From assembly GCA_949294395.1 (NCBI GenBank), contig CASFGU010000047.1, positions 1 through 64,000 of the forward strand: a stretch of 64,000 nucleotides of DNA, given 5' to 3'. Origin of the DNA: an uncultured bacterium. GTDB lineage: Bacteria > Cyanobacteriota > Vampirovibrionia > Gastranaerophilales > Gastranaerophilaceae. The notes below the pieces were generated by a model. The model saw only the letters and a program-made list of their open reading frames with translations. It ran no database searches and had not been told where the DNA came from. The stretch's first letter is position 1. Every line of letters starts with the position of its first letter. The position numbers and the translations under genes were made by a program. Below, piece after piece: positions 32,856 to 54,780 of the stretch.

Positions 32856-33635
32856 GTGATAATTGTTAATGACGATAATGTTACTTCAATTATAAATGCG
32901 GAGAGACCAGGTGATATAAAGTTTGAACGTATTTATTGTCCTGACGGGTTAGAAAATCCTGTTTTGCAGTTCGCTCTGGTTATTAATTTGGAGCAGGAGT
33001 TGGAAATTATATTTGATTCATTTCATAAAAAAACAAGATATAAAATTCGTCGCTGTATAAATGGTGATAAACCTGTTGTAAATTTTGATTTTTCTCCTTC
33101 AAAATACTCTATTGAAAATTTTATTGAATATTATAAAGATTTTGTTAGAGATAAGAATTCAGAAGTTTTAAGTGGAACAACCGGTGAATTGTTGAATAAT
33201 CTATTAAAGTTTCAAAGTTTGGATTGTTTGGCTATTTCATCAGCGTATTCTAAAGATTATCCAGATGATAAAGTTTTTCATGTCTATATATTAGATAAGC
33301 ATGTAAAAAATGTTCGTTTGCTCTGTTCGATTTCATCCTTTAGAAATTTAGATTCCGCAGTAAAAGCTGTGATTGGACGTCTAAACAGATTGCTTCACTA
33401 CCGGGATATAGAGGAATTTAAAAATTCAGGTTATTTAATTTATGATTTAGGCGGTGTTGATTTGAATGCACATTCTGAAGAAACCTCGAATGTTGCAAAT
33501 TTTAAATTGCAATTATGTGATAAAGTAATGAAGTATTATTATGCTGAAAATCGCGCCCTGACGCCAAAACGGGGGGGGGGGCTCCTCTATTCAAGCTGCA
33601 TAAACTTTTTAGATCGGTTGCAAACAAACGATTAA
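32856..33635 (+). CDS. FemAB/GNAT-like N-terminal half of a phase-variable fusion, OFF in this assembly
   Basis: The most likely start is GTG at 32856 with GGAGG four bases upstream; a longer frame begins at a TTG at 32778. The protein resembles FemAB/BioF2-type acyltransferases: LVINLEQELEIIFDSF, KKTRYKIRRC, and YLIYDLGGVD near the end. In the run of eleven G (33571-33581) the frame reads R-G-G-G, then LLYSSCINF and stops at 33635. With 9 or 12 G the frame would instead continue without a stop to 34237, joining a glycosyltransferase half. So the pair is one gene of about 460 residues in its ON form. Codon use is more AT-rich than in core genes. Confidence 0.65.
   Translation: MIIVNDDNVTSIINAERPGDIKFERIYCPDGLENPVLQFALVINLEQELEIIFDSFHKKTRYKIRRCINGDKPVVNFDFSPSKYSIENFIEYYKDFVRDKNSEVLSGTTGELLNNLLKFQSLDCLAISSAYSKDYPDDKVFHVYILDKHVKNVRLLCSISSFRNLDSAVKAVIGRLNRLLHYRDIEEFKNSGYLIYDLGGVDLNAHSEETSNVANFKLQLCDKVMKYYYAENRALTPKRGGGLLYSSCINFLDRLQTND
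33571..33581 (+). repeat. G11 homopolymer tract (contingency tract 1)
   Basis: Eleven consecutive G on the coding strand within an AT-rich gene. The downstream frame (codons beginning at 33581: GCT CCT CTA TTC) is open to 34237. In-frame joining needs 9 or 12 G; with 10 it stops within eight codons, and with 11 at 33635. Confidence 0.9.
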
Positions 33636-35920: not shown

Positions 35921-36961
35921 TTATTTATCATATTTGTCAAGAAATTTTTCAAGACACCACAATAGCCATTTTTGGTCACCGGAGAACAAGCCCACCCCCT
36001 TTTTGATGAATTCTTCTCTTGACGGGCCTTTCCAGTCTTTTAACCATTGTGTGGTAGCTCTTGGCATTGGAATTTTATCAGGAATTGCTATGTCAGGATA
36101 TCTTCTGGCAAACAGTTCCCTGACTAGATATTTCGGTTCTCCGTTTCTAATTCTTTTTAAATCTAATGGCTCAGTCATTTTCATAAATGAATATGGATCT
36201 AAATAGTCAATGTCTTCTTTATTAAAAGCATGCATGTATGAAGTTGATGATTCAATAGCAAATATTTCATCCATAAATTTAAGAAAATCTATTTTATCGT
36301 TTGGCAGACGATATTTTTCATAAACGTCTCTTACACTGATATAATCTTTTAATATATCTTCTGGATTTATAAAATTATATCTTTCTTCAAAATCATTGAA
36401 ATTCCAGTCTTTTGAAAGTAGTTTATCCATTCCCCCAAATATCAGATCAGCACTTTCTCCTATGATAATTCGATTTATTCCTTGAGATTTTGCATGTTTT
36501 GCAGCTTTTACTAATTGTACCTCAATGGAGTGAAAAGGAACTCCGTCATATTCTAAAATTTCAGGCGTTAATTCTTCAAAATCACTCCAGTGCATCTCTA
36601 TAATTTCTTGTTTTAAACCGTAAGCGTCACAATATTTTTTTGCTTGCGCTGTTTCATCTATGGCTCCATCTGCAATACATCTGAATGTATAGGCTATGGT
36701 ATCCTTAGGCAGGTATGAAGCTAATATTGCACTGTCCATCCCTCCAGAAAGCAAAATCGCAGTTTTATTCTTAACGTAAAAATTTTTAATTTTTTCTTTT
36801 ATAATACATTCAATATCATCAATATTTTTTACTGGTAAAAGTTCATTTTCCGGTTTTGATTTGTATACTTTATGAGATAAATTTTTAAAGAAGTTTATCT
36901 TTTCATTTTTAATAAATCTAAAAGCTAAATAGTGGCTCATACAATAATTTTTATTTATCAT
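35921..36961 (-). CDS. Asparagine-synthase-like ATP-pyrophosphatase domain protein
   Basis: 346 residues. The synthetase domain is clear: LLSGGMDSAILASYLP is the PP-loop, followed by TFRCIADGAIDETAQAKKYC and GESADLIFGG. The usual N-terminal glutaminase domain with its catalytic Cys2 is missing, so ammonia must come from elsewhere or the substrate differs. In polysaccharide loci such enzymes amidate sugar carboxylates or transfer amines. AGGAGG lies inside the previous gene end, with an overlap of 11 bases, so translation is coupled. Confidence 0.75.
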   Translation of the reverse strand: MINKNYCMSHYLAFRFIKNEKINFFKNLSHKVYKSKPENELLPVKNIDDIECIIKEKIKNFYVKNKTAILLSGGMDSAILASYLPKDTIAYTFRCIADGAIDETAQAKKYCDAYGLKQEIIEMHWSDFEELTPEILEYDGVPFHSIEVQLVKAAKHAKSQGINRIIIGESADLIFGGMDKLLSKDWNFNDFEERYNFINPEDILKDYISVRDVYEKYRLPNDKIDFLKFMDEIFAIESSTSYMHAFNKEDIDYLDPYSFMKMTEPLDLKRIRNGEPKYLVRELFARRYPDIAIPDKIPMPRATTQWLKDWKGPSREEFIKKGVGLFSGDQKWLLWCLEKFLDKYDK

Positions 36962-38303: not shown

Positions 38304-39023
38304 TTATTTTGTTGATTTTTGTAATACCGCTGTTACTAATACCGGATAATTGGGAGAATAATTATTGTAATAGTCAACAGAGTTGCTTCTTTTTATATTT
38401 AACATATATCTGAGTGCAGCATTTAAGTTGCCATAAGTTTTAATAGAAATTAAACGGTGTTTATCAACAAGATTGTCGCAAGCGTATTTTAGTCCGGTTT
38501 CCGTTATATATGTTAAAAATGGTGCTTCCGGTAAATTTTTTGAAAACATATCCGAACATATTAAAATCACGCCTTCCGGCTTGAGCATTGTAACAACATT
38601 TGATAATATCTGAACCGGATTTAAAAAATACGGCAGGCACTGTGTAAATATAATACAGTCGAATTTTTCTTCAGGATACGTTGAAATATCCTCAAGCTCA
38701 AAAAAATAATTTATATCTTTAAATTTTTTATATTCATTATAGTATTTCAAACCAGCACAGTATCTTATTTGATTTATATTATTTATGTATTTATGAGCAT
38801 AATTTTCAGTTCCTTTAAACTCAAGAACTGTACCTCTTATATAATGTTTATTTTCATCAATAAATTTTTCTATATAAACTCTGTTTATAGAGCTTATAAC
38901 ATCACCGACCCCATTGTAATTAGCAATTTTAATTAATTTATGAATTTGCTTATCAATATATTTTTCATACCAATTCGGATTTTGCCATAAAAATTTACTT
39001 CTTAATTTTTTTATAATACCCAT
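38304..39023 (-). CDS. SAM-dependent methyltransferase-like protein
   Basis: 239 residues. Class I methyltransferase topology: GTVLEFKGTENYAHKY in place of the usual E/DxGxGxG, then FDCIIFTQCLPYFLNPVQIL (post-motif II) and LKPEGVILICSDMFS. The SAM-binding loop is divergent. Its start overlaps the end of the upstream GT8-PIG-L gene by 29 bases. It probably caps or modifies glycan; the substrate is unknown. Confidence 0.7.
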   Translation of the reverse strand: MGIIKKLRSKFLWQNPNWYEKYIDKQIHKLIKIANYNGVGDVISSINRVYIEKFIDENKHYIRGTVLEFKGTENYAHKYINNINQIRYCAGLKYYNEYKKFKDINYFFELEDISTYPEEKFDCIIFTQCLPYFLNPVQILSNVVTMLKPEGVILICSDMFSKNLPEAPFLTYITETGLKYACDNLVDKHRLISIKTYGNLNAALRYMLNIKRSNSVDYYNNYSPNYPVLVTAVLQKSTK

Positions 39024-40698
39024 ACTCTCCTCTTAAATAATCCTTTAATGAACATATATAATAAGCTTCTGCATATTTAGCAGGTGGCATGCTCATGCTC
39101 CTGTATGTATTTAACCCCTTAACCCATCTAGGATAATTCCAGATTTCATCAATTTGTGATGAATACATTTTTAATATTTGGAGTTTTTTCTCCATATAAT
39201 CATCTATGTTAAGATAATAATTGGGTTCAGATATTGACTGCCATACTTCATAAAAAACTACTTTTGTTGTAGGTTTTGGTTTAGAGTATAGCATTAGTCT
39301 TTTTATCAAATTGTTTGTAATATACCTGTGCTCAGGATGACTGTCTTTCGGTTGAGGCAAAAATATATAATCATATTTACTAAAATCAATTACTTTTAGA
39401 TAATCTTTCAAATGGTTATCAATTTGATTTATAAATGGCGGCTGCTCTCCGAATGTTTCAAATATCCAGTAATTTTTTACATTTAACGCTTCCATTACTG
39501 AATAAAATTCTTTTATTCTAATATCAGACCTTTCTTTAGCACTTTGACCATTGTATTTAACTCCAGAACTTGATAGGCACGCTACATCAAGTTTACCGGA
39601 ATACTTAATTAATAAGCCCCCGGCACCAATGATTTCATCGTCAGGATGCGGACATACCAGAATCCCCCCCCCCCTCAGCGAATTTAGCTCAATACTTGGG
39701 TTTGGAAGAATTTTTATTTTTTGCTTAATAATTTTATCAAAGATTTTAATTTGTTTTATTTTATAACCGTCCATGCAGAATACATCTTTCCTAATAATAA
39801 ACTTAAATAATTTTTTTATAAGAAATTTAAGTGCTATGTTTTGAAAAGATGTTAACTTTGCATATTTATAAAATTTTAACACTGTTTTTAAATTGCTTTC
39901 TCTGCTGTTTGGTTTGGCGCCGCCTGCAAGTTGCCAGATTACAGGTTTATAAAATGCCTCTTTAATCTCCTCATTACTATAAATACCATTGTATATTTTA
40001 AAGTATGTCTGTAGATTATAAGTAAGAGGTTCATGATTAAACAGAGGATTAATAGAAAATTTGGGTTTTAGTTTTTTATAATTATTTATTTGAAAGATTA
40101 AATTTAATAAATCCATGTCCGGCCAGTAAAAGCCTTTTTCCTCGTTAATAGAAATTGCACAAGCCTTTTCATAGTAATGGTTTTCAATGTATTTCTTCGT
40201 ATCAAAAAGAAGCAAACCTGAATAGAAGTAATTGTGTTTTTTATTAAGAGCTAATTCATTAAAGTGATTTAGTTCTTCATCTGTTATTGGAGAGGCAACT
40301 GCTCCGATTGCATATTTATCCAGCGACGTGTTATAAAGTTCAGTTAAAGATTTGTGAACGATTATATCTGCATCCAGATAAAGAAGTCTTTCGTATTTAA
40401 AACCTAAATTTGAAAGAATTAACGGAACTTTAATTCTTAAATAACAAAGTTTTGATGTCCAAATATCTGTTGTTTTAAAATCCGGAAGTTCTTTTTCTAA
40501 ATCTACATCAATATAAGTAATTTTAAAATTTTTAATCTTTTGTAAATTTTCTATATTATTTTTTGCATTATTACTTATCCCTTCAGAAAAAATTATAAAA
40601 TTAAATTCATCATTAGAAGCTGCATTTGCAAGAATTGAGGCAATAGCAGTTTCTAAAAATATTAAATAATTTTCTGATATACAAAAGACTATATTCAT
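38995..40698 (-). CDS. GT8 glycosyltransferase fused to a PIG-L deacetylase, phase-variable and ON
   Basis: 567 residues. The N-terminal half (1 to about 290) is a GT8 enzyme, with NIVFCISENYLIFLETAIAS and the metal-binding DAD in LLYLDADIIVHKSL. The C-terminal part (about 346-567) is a PIG-L/LmbE deacetylase, with CPHPDDEIIGAGG carrying the zinc ligands and a late PQPKDSHPEHRYI. The two are joined by Arg-Gly-Gly-Gly, encoded by eleven G (39674-39664). With 10 or 12 G the frame stops within about 22 codons, leaving the GT8 part alone. In this assembly the frame is open. A sugar could thus be added with or without N-deacetylation. Confidence 0.85.
   Translation of the reverse strand: MNIVFCISENYLIFLETAIASILANAASNDEFNFIIFSEGISNNAKNNIENLQKIKNFKITYIDVDLEKELPDFKTTDIWTSKLCYLRIKVPLILSNLGFKYERLLYLDADIIVHKSLTELYNTSLDKYAIGAVASPITDEELNHFNELALNKKHNYFYSGLLLFDTKKYIENHYYEKACAISINEEKGFYWPDMDLLNLIFQINNYKKLKPKFSINPLFNHEPLTYNLQTYFKIYNGIYSNEEIKEAFYKPVIWQLAGGAKPNSRESNLKTVLKFYKYAKLTSFQNIALKFLIKKLFKFIIRKDVFCMDGYKIKQIKIFDKIIKQKIKILPNPSIELNSLRGGGILVCPHPDDEIIGAGGLLIKYSGKLDVACLSSSGVKYNGQSAKERSDIRIKEFYSVMEALNVKNYWIFETFGEQPPFINQIDNHLKDYLKVIDFSKYDYIFLPQPKDSHPEHRYITNNLIKRLMLYSKPKPTTKVVFYEVWQSISEPNYYLNIDDYMEKKLQILKMYSSQIDEIWNYPRWVKGLNTYRSMSMPPAKYAEAYYICSLKDYLRGEYGYYKKIKK
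39664..39674 (-). repeat. G11 homopolymer tract (contingency tract 2)
   Basis: Eleven C on the plus strand, eleven G on the coding strand, two codons before the first strand of the PIG-L domain. In frame as found. Both one-base changes give an early stop. Confidence 0.9.
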
Positions 40699-43045: not shown

Positions 43046-43609
43046 TTATTTTTTTATTCCAATTAGGGTATAATCTATGGGTTTACGGTTATCTACCCCC
43101 CCCCCCCCAGCTCTAAGTGGCTTATAGCAAGCATTTATTGAGATATTAAACTTATCAGCAAATAGTAATTTTAAACCATCTTCCGAGATTCTCCAATAGT
43201 CTGGAAACGGGGCATGTCTATAAAAATAGTAAGGTACACTGAGAAAAATTTTCCCACCAGGTTTTAATATATTATAAAATATTTCAGGTAATTCCCAAAT
43301 TCTTGATGTGTGTTCTAAAACTTCTAGTGCTATAATTGTTCCAATTGATTCTTTTTTTAAATGTTTTTCTAAATTAAGAACATCATCTATTATATCACAA
43401 TTTGATTCAGGATATACATCACAACTGATATATTTCATATTCTTTTCTGTAAAATACTGCTTCGTGTTAACAAAATATTTTTTTATGGGTGTAAATTCTT
43501 CACACATTGGACCAATTTCTAAAACTGGTTGTTCCGTAGTTTCTTTTAATATCTCATTTTTAAGAAAATTATAAACATTTTTTCTTAAATACTTAACTTC
43601 CTCTCTCAT
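43046..43609 (-). CDS. SAM methyltransferase with a G13 tract near its C-terminus
   Basis: 187 residues. A class I methyltransferase: PVLEIGPMCEEFTPIKKYF (SAM loop), IIALEVLEHTSRIWELPE, and LKPGGKIFLSVPYYFYRHAPFPD. AAGGAG precedes the ATG. Thirteen G (43108-43096) encode AGGGG, 15 residues before the end, and the last strand (PIDYTLIGIKK) follows. With 12 G the next codon is TAG; with 14 the frame ends after GR. Loss of the last beta-strand would probably unfold or weaken the enzyme, so this may be a switch, though less decisive than the others. Confidence 0.75.
   Translation of the reverse strand: MREEVKYLRKNVYNFLKNEILKETTEQPVLEIGPMCEEFTPIKKYFVNTKQYFTEKNMKYISCDVYPESNCDIIDDVLNLEKHLKKESIGTIIALEVLEHTSRIWELPEIFYNILKPGGKIFLSVPYYFYRHAPFPDYWRISEDGLKLLFADKFNISINACYKPLRAGGGGVDNRKPIDYTLIGIKK
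43096..43108 (-). repeat. G13 homopolymer tract (contingency tract 3)
   Basis: Thirteen C on the plus strand. In frame in this assembly; either one-base slip stops translation within three codons of the tract. Confidence 0.9.
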
Positions 43610-43624
43610 AGAATTTCTCCTTGT

Positions 43625-45178
43625 TTAAATGTTTAAATAAAAATCTCTTCTGGCTCTTACCATTTTAATTTTTTTTAGATTAGGTTTTGGATATTCTAAT
43701 CCAAGATAATCTGATAAAATGTATAAAGGCATATTCAATCCGCATTCTATTGCACAAGTCGCTCCACCGCCAAATCTCGGGTTTATTTCAATAACGTAAA
43801 TATTTTGTTCATTTTTTATGTATTGTAATGTTATACACCCCTGCCAACCTGAAATACTGCAAATTTGTTCTATTAATTCTTGCTCATGTCTATCAGGGAT
43901 ACGGGTTGTGCACTCCATTACTTCCCCATCAGAAACAGTTTCTCTATCTCGTAATACATATCCTATAACAGCTCGTTTTTTATTAATATATATATCAACA
44001 CTTGTTTCTTGACCTTCTATAAAATCTTGTATTATATAATCGGAAATTGAAATTCTCTTTTTTAATATAGAAAAGTCTTTGGCGTTATCTACTTTATATT
44101 GTTTTTTTGAACCAAATCCATTTTTATGTTTTATTATTTTAGGAAAAATATTTTCTGTATTTTTAAATGTTGGTATTTTATAATAATTAAAAAATTTTTC
44201 AGCAAGTAGTTTATCATTCATATTTGTGCATAAATCATAACTGCTTACTACACACCAACAAGTTTCTATATTGTGTCTTTCTTTAAAATAAGACAATGCC
44301 ACTGTTGCGGCATCCATGTTGGGAATTACAATATTTATACCGTAATAATTAATAGTATCTAAAAGCCAATTAGCAAACTCATTACTCTTAAATGAAGGGC
44401 CTTTTAAAATTTTTGCTAAATGTGATATAGGACAAAATTTTTCACTAATTTCGCATGAAAATAATTCAAGATGTATATTTAATTTATTAGCATCGTAAAT
44501 AAATTTTTCAAGTAATGAAGTTCTTTTTGAGGCGCCTAAAAATAAAATTTTTAATGTACGTTGTTGGTTATAATACTGGCAGCTTTGCATGGTATCCCGA
44601 GAAACAAGCCCCCCCCCCCCTGACTGAATTTCTTTTGCCACAAGGCTTTTTGCCCCTATTGTAACATCAGAACAAATATTAATACGCGGTAAAATCGTCG
44701 TATCTGCGCCTATAAATGTGTTTGCTCCAACCTTTGCTTTTCCGCATAATGTTGAATTTGGACCAATAAAAACACATTTTTCAAGCTTACATTCATGCTC
44801 TACTATTGCTCCGGTGTTTACTACTGAAAAATCTCCAATTTCAGAAAAAATTCCTACATAAGCATTGTGTGCAATAAAAACACCTTTTCCAATTTTTACA
44901 CCTTTTCCAATGTATGCAGTTTTTGATATTACAGAAGTTAAATTGTTATAGTATTTTTCAGATAATTTTCTTCTTTTGAGATTATCACCAATGCCTATTA
45001 TAACTTTTTCATCTTTGATGTTATAGTCTTTTACAACAGGACAATTTAAAATTTTTTCGTTTTCTTTAGCATTTTTATCAAGAAAAACTACATCGGCAGC
45101 AGGTTCATTAAATAGGATTACATCCAGTATACTTTTAGCGTGGCCACCGCAGCCAATAATTACATATTTATTTCCCAT
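43625..45178 (-). CDS. NeuD/PerB-like acetyltransferase fused to an ATP-grasp domain, phase-variable and ON
   Basis: 517 residues. Residues 1 to about 185 form a PglD/NeuD/PerB-type N-acetyltransferase: YVIIGCGGHAKSILDVIL and then left-handed beta-helix hexapeptides (IGKGVFIAHNAYVG, IGPNSTLCGKAKVGANTFIG). Residues about 208-517 are an ATP-grasp enzyme with LKILFLGASKR, IIQDFIEGQETSVDIYI and EINPRFGGGATCAIE. Between them twelve G (44620-44609) encode SGGGG. With 11 or 13 G translation stops within about 20 codons, leaving the acetyltransferase alone. Next to the perosamine-type aminotransferase, it may acetylate GDP-perosamine; the ATP-grasp half could attach an amino acid or another acid. Confidence 0.85.
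   Translation of the reverse strand: MGNKYVIIGCGGHAKSILDVILFNEPAADVVFLDKNAKENEKILNCPVVKDYNIKDEKVIIGIGDNLKRRKLSEKYYNNLTSVISKTAYIGKGVKIGKGVFIAHNAYVGIFSEIGDFSVVNTGAIVEHECKLEKCVFIGPNSTLCGKAKVGANTFIGADTTILPRINICSDVTIGAKSLVAKEIQSGGGGLVSRDTMQSCQYYNQQRTLKILFLGASKRTSLLEKFIYDANKLNIHLELFSCEISEKFCPISHLAKILKGPSFKSNEFANWLLDTINYYGINIVIPNMDAATVALSYFKERHNIETCWCVVSSYDLCTNMNDKLLAEKFFNYYKIPTFKNTENIFPKIIKHKNGFGSKKQYKVDNAKDFSILKKRISISDYIIQDFIEGQETSVDIYINKKRAVIGYVLRDRETVSDGEVMECTTRIPDRHEQELIEQICSISGWQGCITLQYIKNEQNIYVIEINPRFGGGATCAIECGLNMPLYILSDYLGLEYPKPNLKKIKMVRARRDFYLNI
44609..44620 (-). repeat. G12 homopolymer tract (contingency tract 4)
   Basis: Twelve C on the plus strand, at the junction between the hexapeptide domain and the ATP-grasp domain. 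In frame here; both neighbouring lengths truncate. Confidence 0.9.
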
Positions 45179-46262
45179 AAAATTCCCCTATCACATTGCA
45201 TATAAATTTTATATCTTCTTCTGTTAAATTAGGATAGCTTGGTAAATTAATACCTCTGCTGGCTAAATCTTCTGCGATATGGTGTTTTGCATATTTAGAA
45301 GAGTACATTGGCATTGTGTGGATAGGATAAAATGCTGGTCGGGTTTCTATACCTTTTTCTTTCATAAAATCCCGCAGTTTATCCCTTATTTCCGCTTTTT
45401 CTACAAGAATTGAACACATCCAGTAAGTATGAAAAACATCTTTAGTCTGTTTATGAAATTTTACCGGTAGTCCGTTTAAATGTTTTTGGTACCATTTTGC
45501 AACCTGTTGTTTTTTGTCGATAAATTTCTGTACCTGTTCTAATTGTGCTAACCCTATTGCAGCCTGTATATTTGTCATTCTATAGTTAAAGCCTGCAATA
45601 TCGTGCCAGTATTCTCTATATTTGGCAAGTCCCTGTCCCTTATATCTTACAAGTCTGTCATGAAGTGTTGCATCATTTGTGACTACCATTCCGCCTTCAC
45701 CACATGTTATTGTTTTATTACCAAAAAATGAAAAACATCCTATGTCACCAAATGAACCTACTTTTTTACCTTTGTATTCTGACCCTATTGCTTCTGCGCA
45801 ATCTTCTATTACAAACAAATCATGTTCTTTTGCTATTTTCATAATTTCACCCATATTACACGGGTGTCCGTAGAGATGAACTACCATTATCGCTTTTGTT
45901 TTTTCTGTAATTTTAGCTTTAATATCATCAGGATCCATCTGCCAGGTATCTTCCAGACTATCAACAAAAACCGGAACAGCTCCAACCTGAGCAATCGGAT
46001 TTGCTGAGGCTATGTATGTAAATGTCGGAACTATAACTTCGTCACCCTGACCTATGCCAAGTGCAACAACAGCAAGATGAATTGCTACGGTTCCGTTTGA
46101 AACTGCTGTGGCATAATCTGTTCCTATATATTCAGCAAATTTCCCTTCAAAGTCACTAACAAAATGTCCTTTACTTGAAATCCAGCTTGTATCAAGACAT
46201 TCATTAACATACTTTTTTTCATTGCCTTCCAATGCAGGTTGATATACTGGATATTTAATCAT
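45168..46262 (-). CDS. PLP-dependent sugar aminotransferase (GDP-perosamine synthase-like)
   Basis: 364 residues. DegT/DnrJ/EryC1/StrS family: SNGTVAIHLAVVALGIGQGDEV, CFSFFGNKTITCGEGGMVV with the PLP-binding Lys, and a late YWMCSILVEK. WISSKGHFVSDFE at the N-terminus is typical of the perosamine/4-aminosugar branch. Given Gmd in the same locus, a natural substrate is GDP-4-keto-6-deoxymannose, giving GDP-perosamine. It overlaps the NeuD-ATP-grasp gene (11 bases), which would then acetylate the amine. Confidence 0.88.
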   Translation of the reverse strand: MIKYPVYQPALEGNEKKYVNECLDTSWISSKGHFVSDFEGKFAEYIGTDYATAVSNGTVAIHLAVVALGIGQGDEVIVPTFTYIASANPIAQVGAVPVFVDSLEDTWQMDPDDIKAKITEKTKAIMVVHLYGHPCNMGEIMKIAKEHDLFVIEDCAEAIGSEYKGKKVGSFGDIGCFSFFGNKTITCGEGGMVVTNDATLHDRLVRYKGQGLAKYREYWHDIAGFNYRMTNIQAAIGLAQLEQVQKFIDKKQQVAKWYQKHLNGLPVKFHKQTKDVFHTYWMCSILVEKAEIRDKLRDFMKEKGIETRPAFYPIHTMPMYSSKYAKHHIAEDLASRGINLPSYPNLTEEDIKFICNVIGEFYGK

Positions 46263-53536: not shown

Positions 53537-54780
53537 TTATTTTTTCTTCTTTTTTCTTTTGTAATTCCGTTTATTCCTATGTAGTATATGTAATTTTTAT
53601 GACGTATTTTTATTTTGATTTCGGATAAGGATGCAGGAGCAGAGTTTATATATAAATATTTCTTATTTTCAGCGTCATAAAATATTGTTTTTAGAATTTT
53701 TCTTCCGTTATTGTATGAGCAGCTTTCGGGTGGTTTGTTCATTGCAAATTCATTACCGGTGCAGCGTTCGATAAAAACTTCTTCCTGCGGATTGTACAGC
53801 TGAGGGAATGTATTAAGAGCTATCTGCGCAAGAGGTTGAAATTTTGTAGAATGTTTCGCTGATACTGTTGAACTGTAGAAAAGCCATGGCGTGATTGTTA
53901 TTATTGTTAACAGCAGGAGTACAAATTTTGATTTAAGAGATATTTTTTGAAAATAATCAAAACATCCGAATATCAATACGGGTATCATCCAGTATGAATA
54001 TCTGTGTATGAGCATAATCCCCGGATTCCAGTTTAGCTGGGCTGCATCTATAGCAGCAAACAAAAATACTGTTATTGCTGCTAAAATGGCGTATTTATCT
54101 CTTTTGAAAATTCTGTAAAGCACCAGAACACACAATACAGGTACATATATTGCCAGCCCGAAGTTTAAATCCGTAAACAGGCTTGCAATTTTAGCAAAGC
54201 TTATCGTATGCAAATCTGTGGAGTATTCTCCGATAAGACTGAATTTTCCGAAATAGTAGTAATAAAATATGTACGGAATAAAAACTGTTGTCGAAAGTAT
54301 TGTTAATAATGCAAACTCTTTAAGTCTTTTTATTGAATAATCCTTAATTAATAAATATATTTCATATAGCATCATAAAAAAAGGAACTACTGCTGCTGCA
54401 GGATTTTGCAGAGAAGAAACAGCTGTTAAAAATACTGCAGAATATTTGCGTTTATTGTAGTATTCAAGAAGTCCTATGTATAAAAGTACAAATGTAAAAA
54501 CTTCCGGATGTGTCCACGGGTAATAAAACCATAAAGGACTGAATAGAGTTATTCCGGCTAAAAATAAGCGGGTCTTTTCAGACATTGCTTTATTATTGAA
54601 TAAAATCCACCAGAAAAGCAGCAGAATTAAGAGCATATTGGTAATTGTAAAGGTCATTACCGGATTAAGGTGTAAAAACTTTAAAATTATATAAACAGGT
54701 GTGCAAATTAGCGGATAAGCCCAGAAATGCCAGCAAAATCCCCCCCCCCCCCCTATCAGAAAGTGCAGTAAAATAGGCAT
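53533..54780 (-). CDS. GT-C-like membrane glycosyltransferase, main part, OFF in this assembly
   Basis: The true gene runs from 54991 to 53533 across fourteen G (54753-54740). In the present length the upstream frame ends in NFKVFTP, and this frame picks up with a spurious ATG at 54780. From FCWHFWAYPLICTPVYI on it is the continuous membrane part: about ten TM helices and a periplasmic C-terminal domain (about 120 residues). Aromatic HFWAYP and WTHPEVFTFVLLY resemble GT39/GT87-like polyprenyl-sugar-dependent enzymes. With 13 (or 10, 16) G the joined product is about 485 residues. It would act outside the membrane, fitting its DPPR-synthase-like neighbour. Confidence 0.75.
   Translation of the reverse strand: MPILLHFLIGGGGGFCWHFWAYPLICTPVYIILKFLHLNPVMTFTITNMLLILLLFWWILFNNKAMSEKTRLFLAGITLFSPLWFYYPWTHPEVFTFVLLYIGLLEYYNKRKYSAVFLTAVSSLQNPAAAVVPFFMMLYEIYLLIKDYSIKRLKEFALLTILSTTVFIPYIFYYYYFGKFSLIGEYSTDLHTISFAKIASLFTDLNFGLAIYVPVLCVLVLYRIFKRDKYAILAAITVFLFAAIDAAQLNWNPGIMLIHRYSYWMIPVLIFGCFDYFQKISLKSKFVLLLLTIITITPWLFYSSTVSAKHSTKFQPLAQIALNTFPQLYNPQEEVFIERCTGNEFAMNKPPESCSYNNGRKILKTIFYDAENKKYLYINSAPASLSEIKIKIRHKNYIYYIGINGITKEKRRKNK

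Follow-up and report, generated by a model that had tools for sequence, protein, structure and literature searches.

A G11 tract between the transferase and deacetylase halves of a GT8–PIG-L gene as a candidate phase-variation switch in a Gastranaerophilaceae genome

The 64,000-nt stretch of DNA analysed here (the window) carries a run of 11 guanines inside a gene encoding a glycosyltransferase joined to a putative deacetylase. The question raised by this locus is whether the run acts as a switch that adds or removes the deacetylase while the transferase is kept. The proline-tRNA ligase encoded in the window shares 95% identity with its counterpart in Candidatus Scatousia excrementipullorum and 92–94% with those of Gastranaerophilales MAGs; by sequence, the source genome is placed in the Gastranaerophilaceae, near Ca. 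Scatousia.

The run reads as C11 on the plus strand at 39664–39674. It lies in a 567-aa minus-strand ORF, where it is read as G11, and the ATG start codon of this ORF is preceded by GGAGG. The gene and its surroundings are as follows.

38995–40698, minus strand: GT8-PIG-L fusion ORF, 567 aa (ORF and Pfam).
39709–40698, minus strand: GT8 (LgtC-like) transferase region, residues 1–330.
39664–39674, minus strand: G11 tract, codons 342–345, in frame as found.
38998–39663, minus strand: PIG-L/LmbE deacetylase domain, residues 346–567.
38304–39023, minus strand: methyltransferase, sharing 29 nt with the end of the fusion gene; a possible polar target of off states.

The tract is preceded by 341 codons and is spelled AGG GGG GGG GGG (R342-G343-G344-G345). 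Recomputing the ORF confirmed the position and frame given in an earlier sequence-only reading and gave proteins of 567 aa with G11, 362 aa with G10 and 352 aa with G12, matching the stops predicted there about 22 codons on at G10 and about 11 at G12. All three phases thus yield different C-termini, one of them the fusion. The first in-frame start codon 3′ of the tract is at residue 402, past the HPDDE motif; therefore, off-frame lengths should keep the GT8 region and lose the entire deacetylase, and a one-base slip at G11 would probably cut off the PIG-L half with the GT8 half retained. The label "ON state" used in that reading holds for the frame of the assembly consensus and does not denote measured expression.

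G runs of this kind in the window are not due to chance, since G11 was absent from all 100 dinucleotide-preserving shuffles of the window, which in reality has five runs of 11–14, and since spelling R-G-G-G exclusively with AGG and GGG has p ~6e-4 under local codon usage.

The GT8 half matched Pfam PF01501 over residues 2–221 with 104 bits (cut-off 24.3), has a DxD motif in the form DAD at residues 109–111, and is closest among solved sequences to LgtC (1ss9). Its counterpart of the C-terminal HxxGxxKPW-like motif aligns as QLAGGAKPN, with KPN where KPW is usual and thus divergent. An AlphaFold model of this half, built on a thin alignment, was too poor for use.

The PIG-L half matched Pfam PF02585 over residues 347–462 with 52 bits (curated cut-off 28.2), so that the domain begins two residues past the tract, as had been proposed. 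Both metal/catalytic motifs, HxDDE and HxxH, are there (HPDDE at 351 and HPEHR at 454). The H/D/D/E residues and both histidines are invariant between the fusion and stand-alone homologues, and the acidic residue of the second motif (HPEH) is E here and D in the homologues. The nearest solved sequences are archaeal diacetylchitobiose deacetylases (8bgn), with the match starting at residue 346–347. The AlphaFold model showed a confident PIG-L fold from about residue 341, with the first strand at 345–349, and its fold matches included 4xm1 (E 1e-13) and 2ixd (E 1.5e-9). One match within the PIG-L superfamily is a hydratase (GalB, 5cgz); deacetylation of an N-acetyl sugar by this half is therefore assigned from the family and the best matches, and is presumed below.

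The point of fusion can be placed after the GT8 region, which ends at about residue 290–330, and before the tract, because the similarity of two stand-alone PIG-L relatives from the order (L035 and L036) reaches back to residue ~294 and many PIG-L homologues on viral contigs begin only 3–16 residues ahead of the equivalent of residue 346. Some of the order's PIG-L homologues that stand alone have an N-terminal segment (e.g., ..ELNSNNKCLLLAPHPDDE in L036) aligning just before the tract, so the tract may sit slightly within what was once a separate PIG-L gene and not precisely at the joint.

We consider it likely that G11 is a contingency (phase-variation) tract within a bifunctional glycan-modifying gene, toggling its PIG-L half with the GT8 half kept. 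In the proposed mechanism, slipped-strand mispairing would alter the tract length. With 8, 11 or 14 Gs the GT8-PIG-L fusion would be produced, and with any other length translation would stop soon after the tract, leaving GT8 with a short tail and without the deacetylase. Since the deacetylase alone would be lost at off lengths, the switch would alter glycan chemistry (transfer with or without deacetylation) rather than silence the gene. The deacetylase switch of the sequence-only reading stood in its anatomy and context: the tract is length-sensitive, the PIG-L motifs are present, and the GT8 region is complete upstream.

Off states may also reduce translation of the overlapping downstream methyltransferase. 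The fusion gene shares 1 nt with the FkbM gene upstream of it and 29 nt with the methyltransferase gene downstream, and the off-state stops fall 588–620 nt ahead of the next start, so some methyltransferase loss is possible. The same arrangement would suit a plain on/off switch, in which the truncated GT8 is unstable or inactive and the off state loses both activities together with, by polarity, the methyltransferase. With its divergent C-terminal motif and poor model, the truncated form might be inactive; against this, the GT8 profile and tail are complete ahead of the tract, and GT8 homologues of ~300 aa stand alone. We infer that the truncated GT8 is active and regard plain on/off switching as unlikely.

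The fusion gene is part of a region at about 33–55 kb with five G tracts, each situated where a change of length joins or separates reading frames; at 39664, 341 and 222 aa are joined as found. The other four tracts and two associated genes are listed below.

33571–33581, plus strand: G11 tract; as found, a 264-aa ORF upstream runs on for 17 codons to a stop, whereas with G12 it would continue into a 217-aa C-terminal piece resembling glycosyltransferase 1 (Pfam match weak, E 0.02).
43096–43108, minus strand: G13 tract near a methyltransferase C-terminus (167 + 16 aa), in frame as found.
43625–45178, minus strand: PglD-like/ATP-grasp fusion ORF, 517 aa (Pfam), seen only in the source genome and in none of the others among 59 relatives.
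44609–44620, minus strand: G12 tract, in frame as found, between a PglD/perosamine N-acetyltransferase-like domain (186 aa) and the ATP-grasp domain (327 aa) that it joins.
45168–46262, minus strand: DegT aminotransferase, whose closest solved relative is perosamine synthetase (3bn1).
54740–54753, minus strand: G14 tract, out of frame; G13 would join 79 upstream codons to a 402-aa hydrophobic ORF.

The G12 tract within the PglD-like/ATP-grasp gene shows the same domain-toggle layout as the GT8-PIG-L gene. In a related genome (L272:7876, G025), the C-terminal region of an asparagine-synthase-like gene contains a G11 insertion that is missing from its relative in the window, at 35921–36961 (IPMPRATTQWLKDW...).

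The closest solved relative of the PglD-type domain is perosamine N-acetyltransferase (4ea7), and the region also encodes a GDP-mannose 4,6-dehydratase, an NAD-dependent epimerase that by family resembles GDP-fucose synthase and may function as such, and several glycosyltransferases and methyltransferases. As a lead only, an N-acetylperosamine-like sugar is a possible product of the locus and hence a possible substrate of the deacetylase. The earlier suggestion that the deacetylase acts on the newly transferred sugar, or on one beside it, is speculative, as are a change in surface charge and resistance to cationic peptides.

Poly-G tracts are abundant in the source genome, which has 76 tracts of at least 8 Gs, mostly 11–12 long. 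Tracts of at least 9 Gs number from 0 to 116 per genome within the family and from 0 to 6 in other families of the order. Among paralogue pairs of the source genome with at least 85% flank identity, 25 of 85 had unequal tract lengths, all differing by frame-changing amounts. Two copies lying near contig ends, on C31 (G12) and C33 (G11), have identical 40 + 40 nt flanks and unequal tracts. Such tracts therefore change length in the source genome, as observed at these other copies and not at the GT8-PIG-L gene; it is to this extent that the length switching earlier proposed was borne out, and variation of the tract at 39664–39674 itself is presumed by analogy.

Many contigs (C4, C8, C10, C15, C16, C28, C33, C42 and C71) end in or just past an ATTTAC-G11-CAAGTAGTT repeat. 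With so many ends at this repeat, the assembly is probably interrupted by this multi-copy poly-G leader, which would then have more copies than are counted. A second multi-copy poly-G leader, MQKxxIDRI-G11-GYQLTV..ISDLDLR, was seen in a relative (G012, L347–L352), where it precedes only short ORFs of about 20–37 codons.

Tract contexts were taken from the stretches around the tracts in the source genome and four relatives (G033, G025, G002 and G012). Most of the sampled tracts lie about 9–11 codons past a ribosome-binding site and ATG, before the prepilin motif FTLAEVLITLG. Out of frame with the ATG were 80 of 92 prepilin tracts (binomial against 1/3, p 1e-5) and 5 of 16 mid-gene tracts; because those of G002 and G012 were picked partly by the base preceding the tract, the proportions should not be read as estimates for whole genomes. 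Each genome has dozens of prepilin-like genes with a G10–G12 tract, in the source genome outside the window (e.g., L074, L080 and L099), in G033 (L220–L258) and in G002 and G012 (L313–L350). A very large, mostly silent phase-variable pilin repertoire is possible.

Long G runs can slip during RNA synthesis, and slippage in transcription or translation would give every cell a fixed mixture of GT8-only and fusion proteins at constant DNA length. The preponderance of out-of-frame prepilin tracts in the family would be tolerable under constant slippage; nevertheless, near-identical copies in the genome differ in the DNA itself, and we find this explanation distinctly improbable. Less credible again is a fixed fusion in which the run, without appreciable variation, merely encodes a flexible R-G-G-G linker. 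The run is in frame, at the edge of the PIG-L domain and beside a low-confidence stretch of the model, as a linker would be, but its exclusive AGG/GGG spelling and the presence of four comparable tracts at 33–55 kb, of which two are out of frame, make this very unlikely. Finally, a spurious or miscalled tract deserves next to no credence: short-read assembly copes badly with G runs, and tracts of this kind mark the ends of many contigs in this genome, but the one here lies well inside a 64-kb contig and is flanked to left and right by coherent coding sequence, and a uniform error in tract length was set aside since mid-gene tracts are mostly in frame (11/16) and prepilin tracts mostly not (12/92 in frame; Fisher p 9e-6).

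No GT8-PIG-L fusion was detected elsewhere by a peptide-pattern scan of named genomes, nor among 59 relatives, in which GT8 and PIG-L matches occurred only separately. Within the 13 genomes of the genus, PIG-L was found in the source genome and in none of the 12 others, and of 383 family genomes only 1, the source genome, had a G8 no more than 30 nt away from codons fitting the HxDDE pattern. Since the fusion was found nowhere else searched and PIG-L is absent from the 12 congeners, the GT8-PIG-L module is probably a recent acquisition. Scans of IMG/VR for a phage origin gave only distant relatives (PIG-L 21–44%, GT8 25–30%), and this origin was rejected.

Phase variation at the C-terminus is known from Helicobacter canadensis, with poly-G tracts of at least 10 late in the reading frame (PMC2823697). 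As in that species, tract length here would set the C-terminus without silencing the gene, and the tracts are concentrated in a surface-glycan-type cluster. In H. canadensis, however, it is the tail that changes, whereas here a whole catalytic domain would be gained or lost; variation there was shown at read level (PMC2823697), whereas the present fusion is known from assembled sequence. In Neisseria, fusion of kdtA with NMB0013 is set by tract length (PMC5953494), and PMC5320596 cites phase-variable fusions of NGK_1211/1212 and of pglB2 with a downstream phosphoglycosyltransferase gene. Here too, one tract length fuses two coding sequences, which in some of the Neisseria cases are glycan enzymes. 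The enzymes and the phylum differ, and the GT8-PIG-L pair is not among the fusions found in these papers. LgtC, the Neisseria GT8 galactosyltransferase to which the GT8 half is closest among solved relatives (1ss9), is itself encoded with a varying G tract (PMC5320596); unlike in lgtC, the tract here follows the transferase region and the protein has a second enzyme. The PIG-L half shares its fold and its HxDDE and HxxH motifs with the archaeal diacetylchitobiose deacetylases of the PIG-L/LmbE family (8bgn, 3wl4, 4xm1), from which it differs in sequence (~25% identity) and in being fused to GT8. By its sequence features, namely a homopolymer far longer than chance would give, placed late in a coding region or between two, with three phases of which one gives a fusion, the GT8-PIG-L tract would work like known C-terminal and fusion phase variation.

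A literature search found no phase-variable PIG-L gene, and in a search missing most subscription journals no report of phase variation in Gastranaerophilales was found. This type of switch is known in other bacteria and seems unreported in this order. If the tract varies, single cells would differ in glycan deacetylation with the transferase staying on. Chemically, such a switch would be cleaner than that of the usual glycosyltransferase genes, which turn on or off, and phase variation would be extended to Gastranaerophilales, the host being a common, mostly uncultured gut relative of cyanobacteria. For the family as a whole we suggest, tentatively and short of calling it probable, that poly-G contingency loci may be exceptionally widely used by Gastranaerophilaceae, with as many as 116 tracts of at least 9 Gs in a genome of 2 Mb. 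Most of them would switch prepilins; those in glycan loci would act as domain joints through which entire enzyme domains are gained or lost, and glycan chemistry, beyond mere expression, would be switched.
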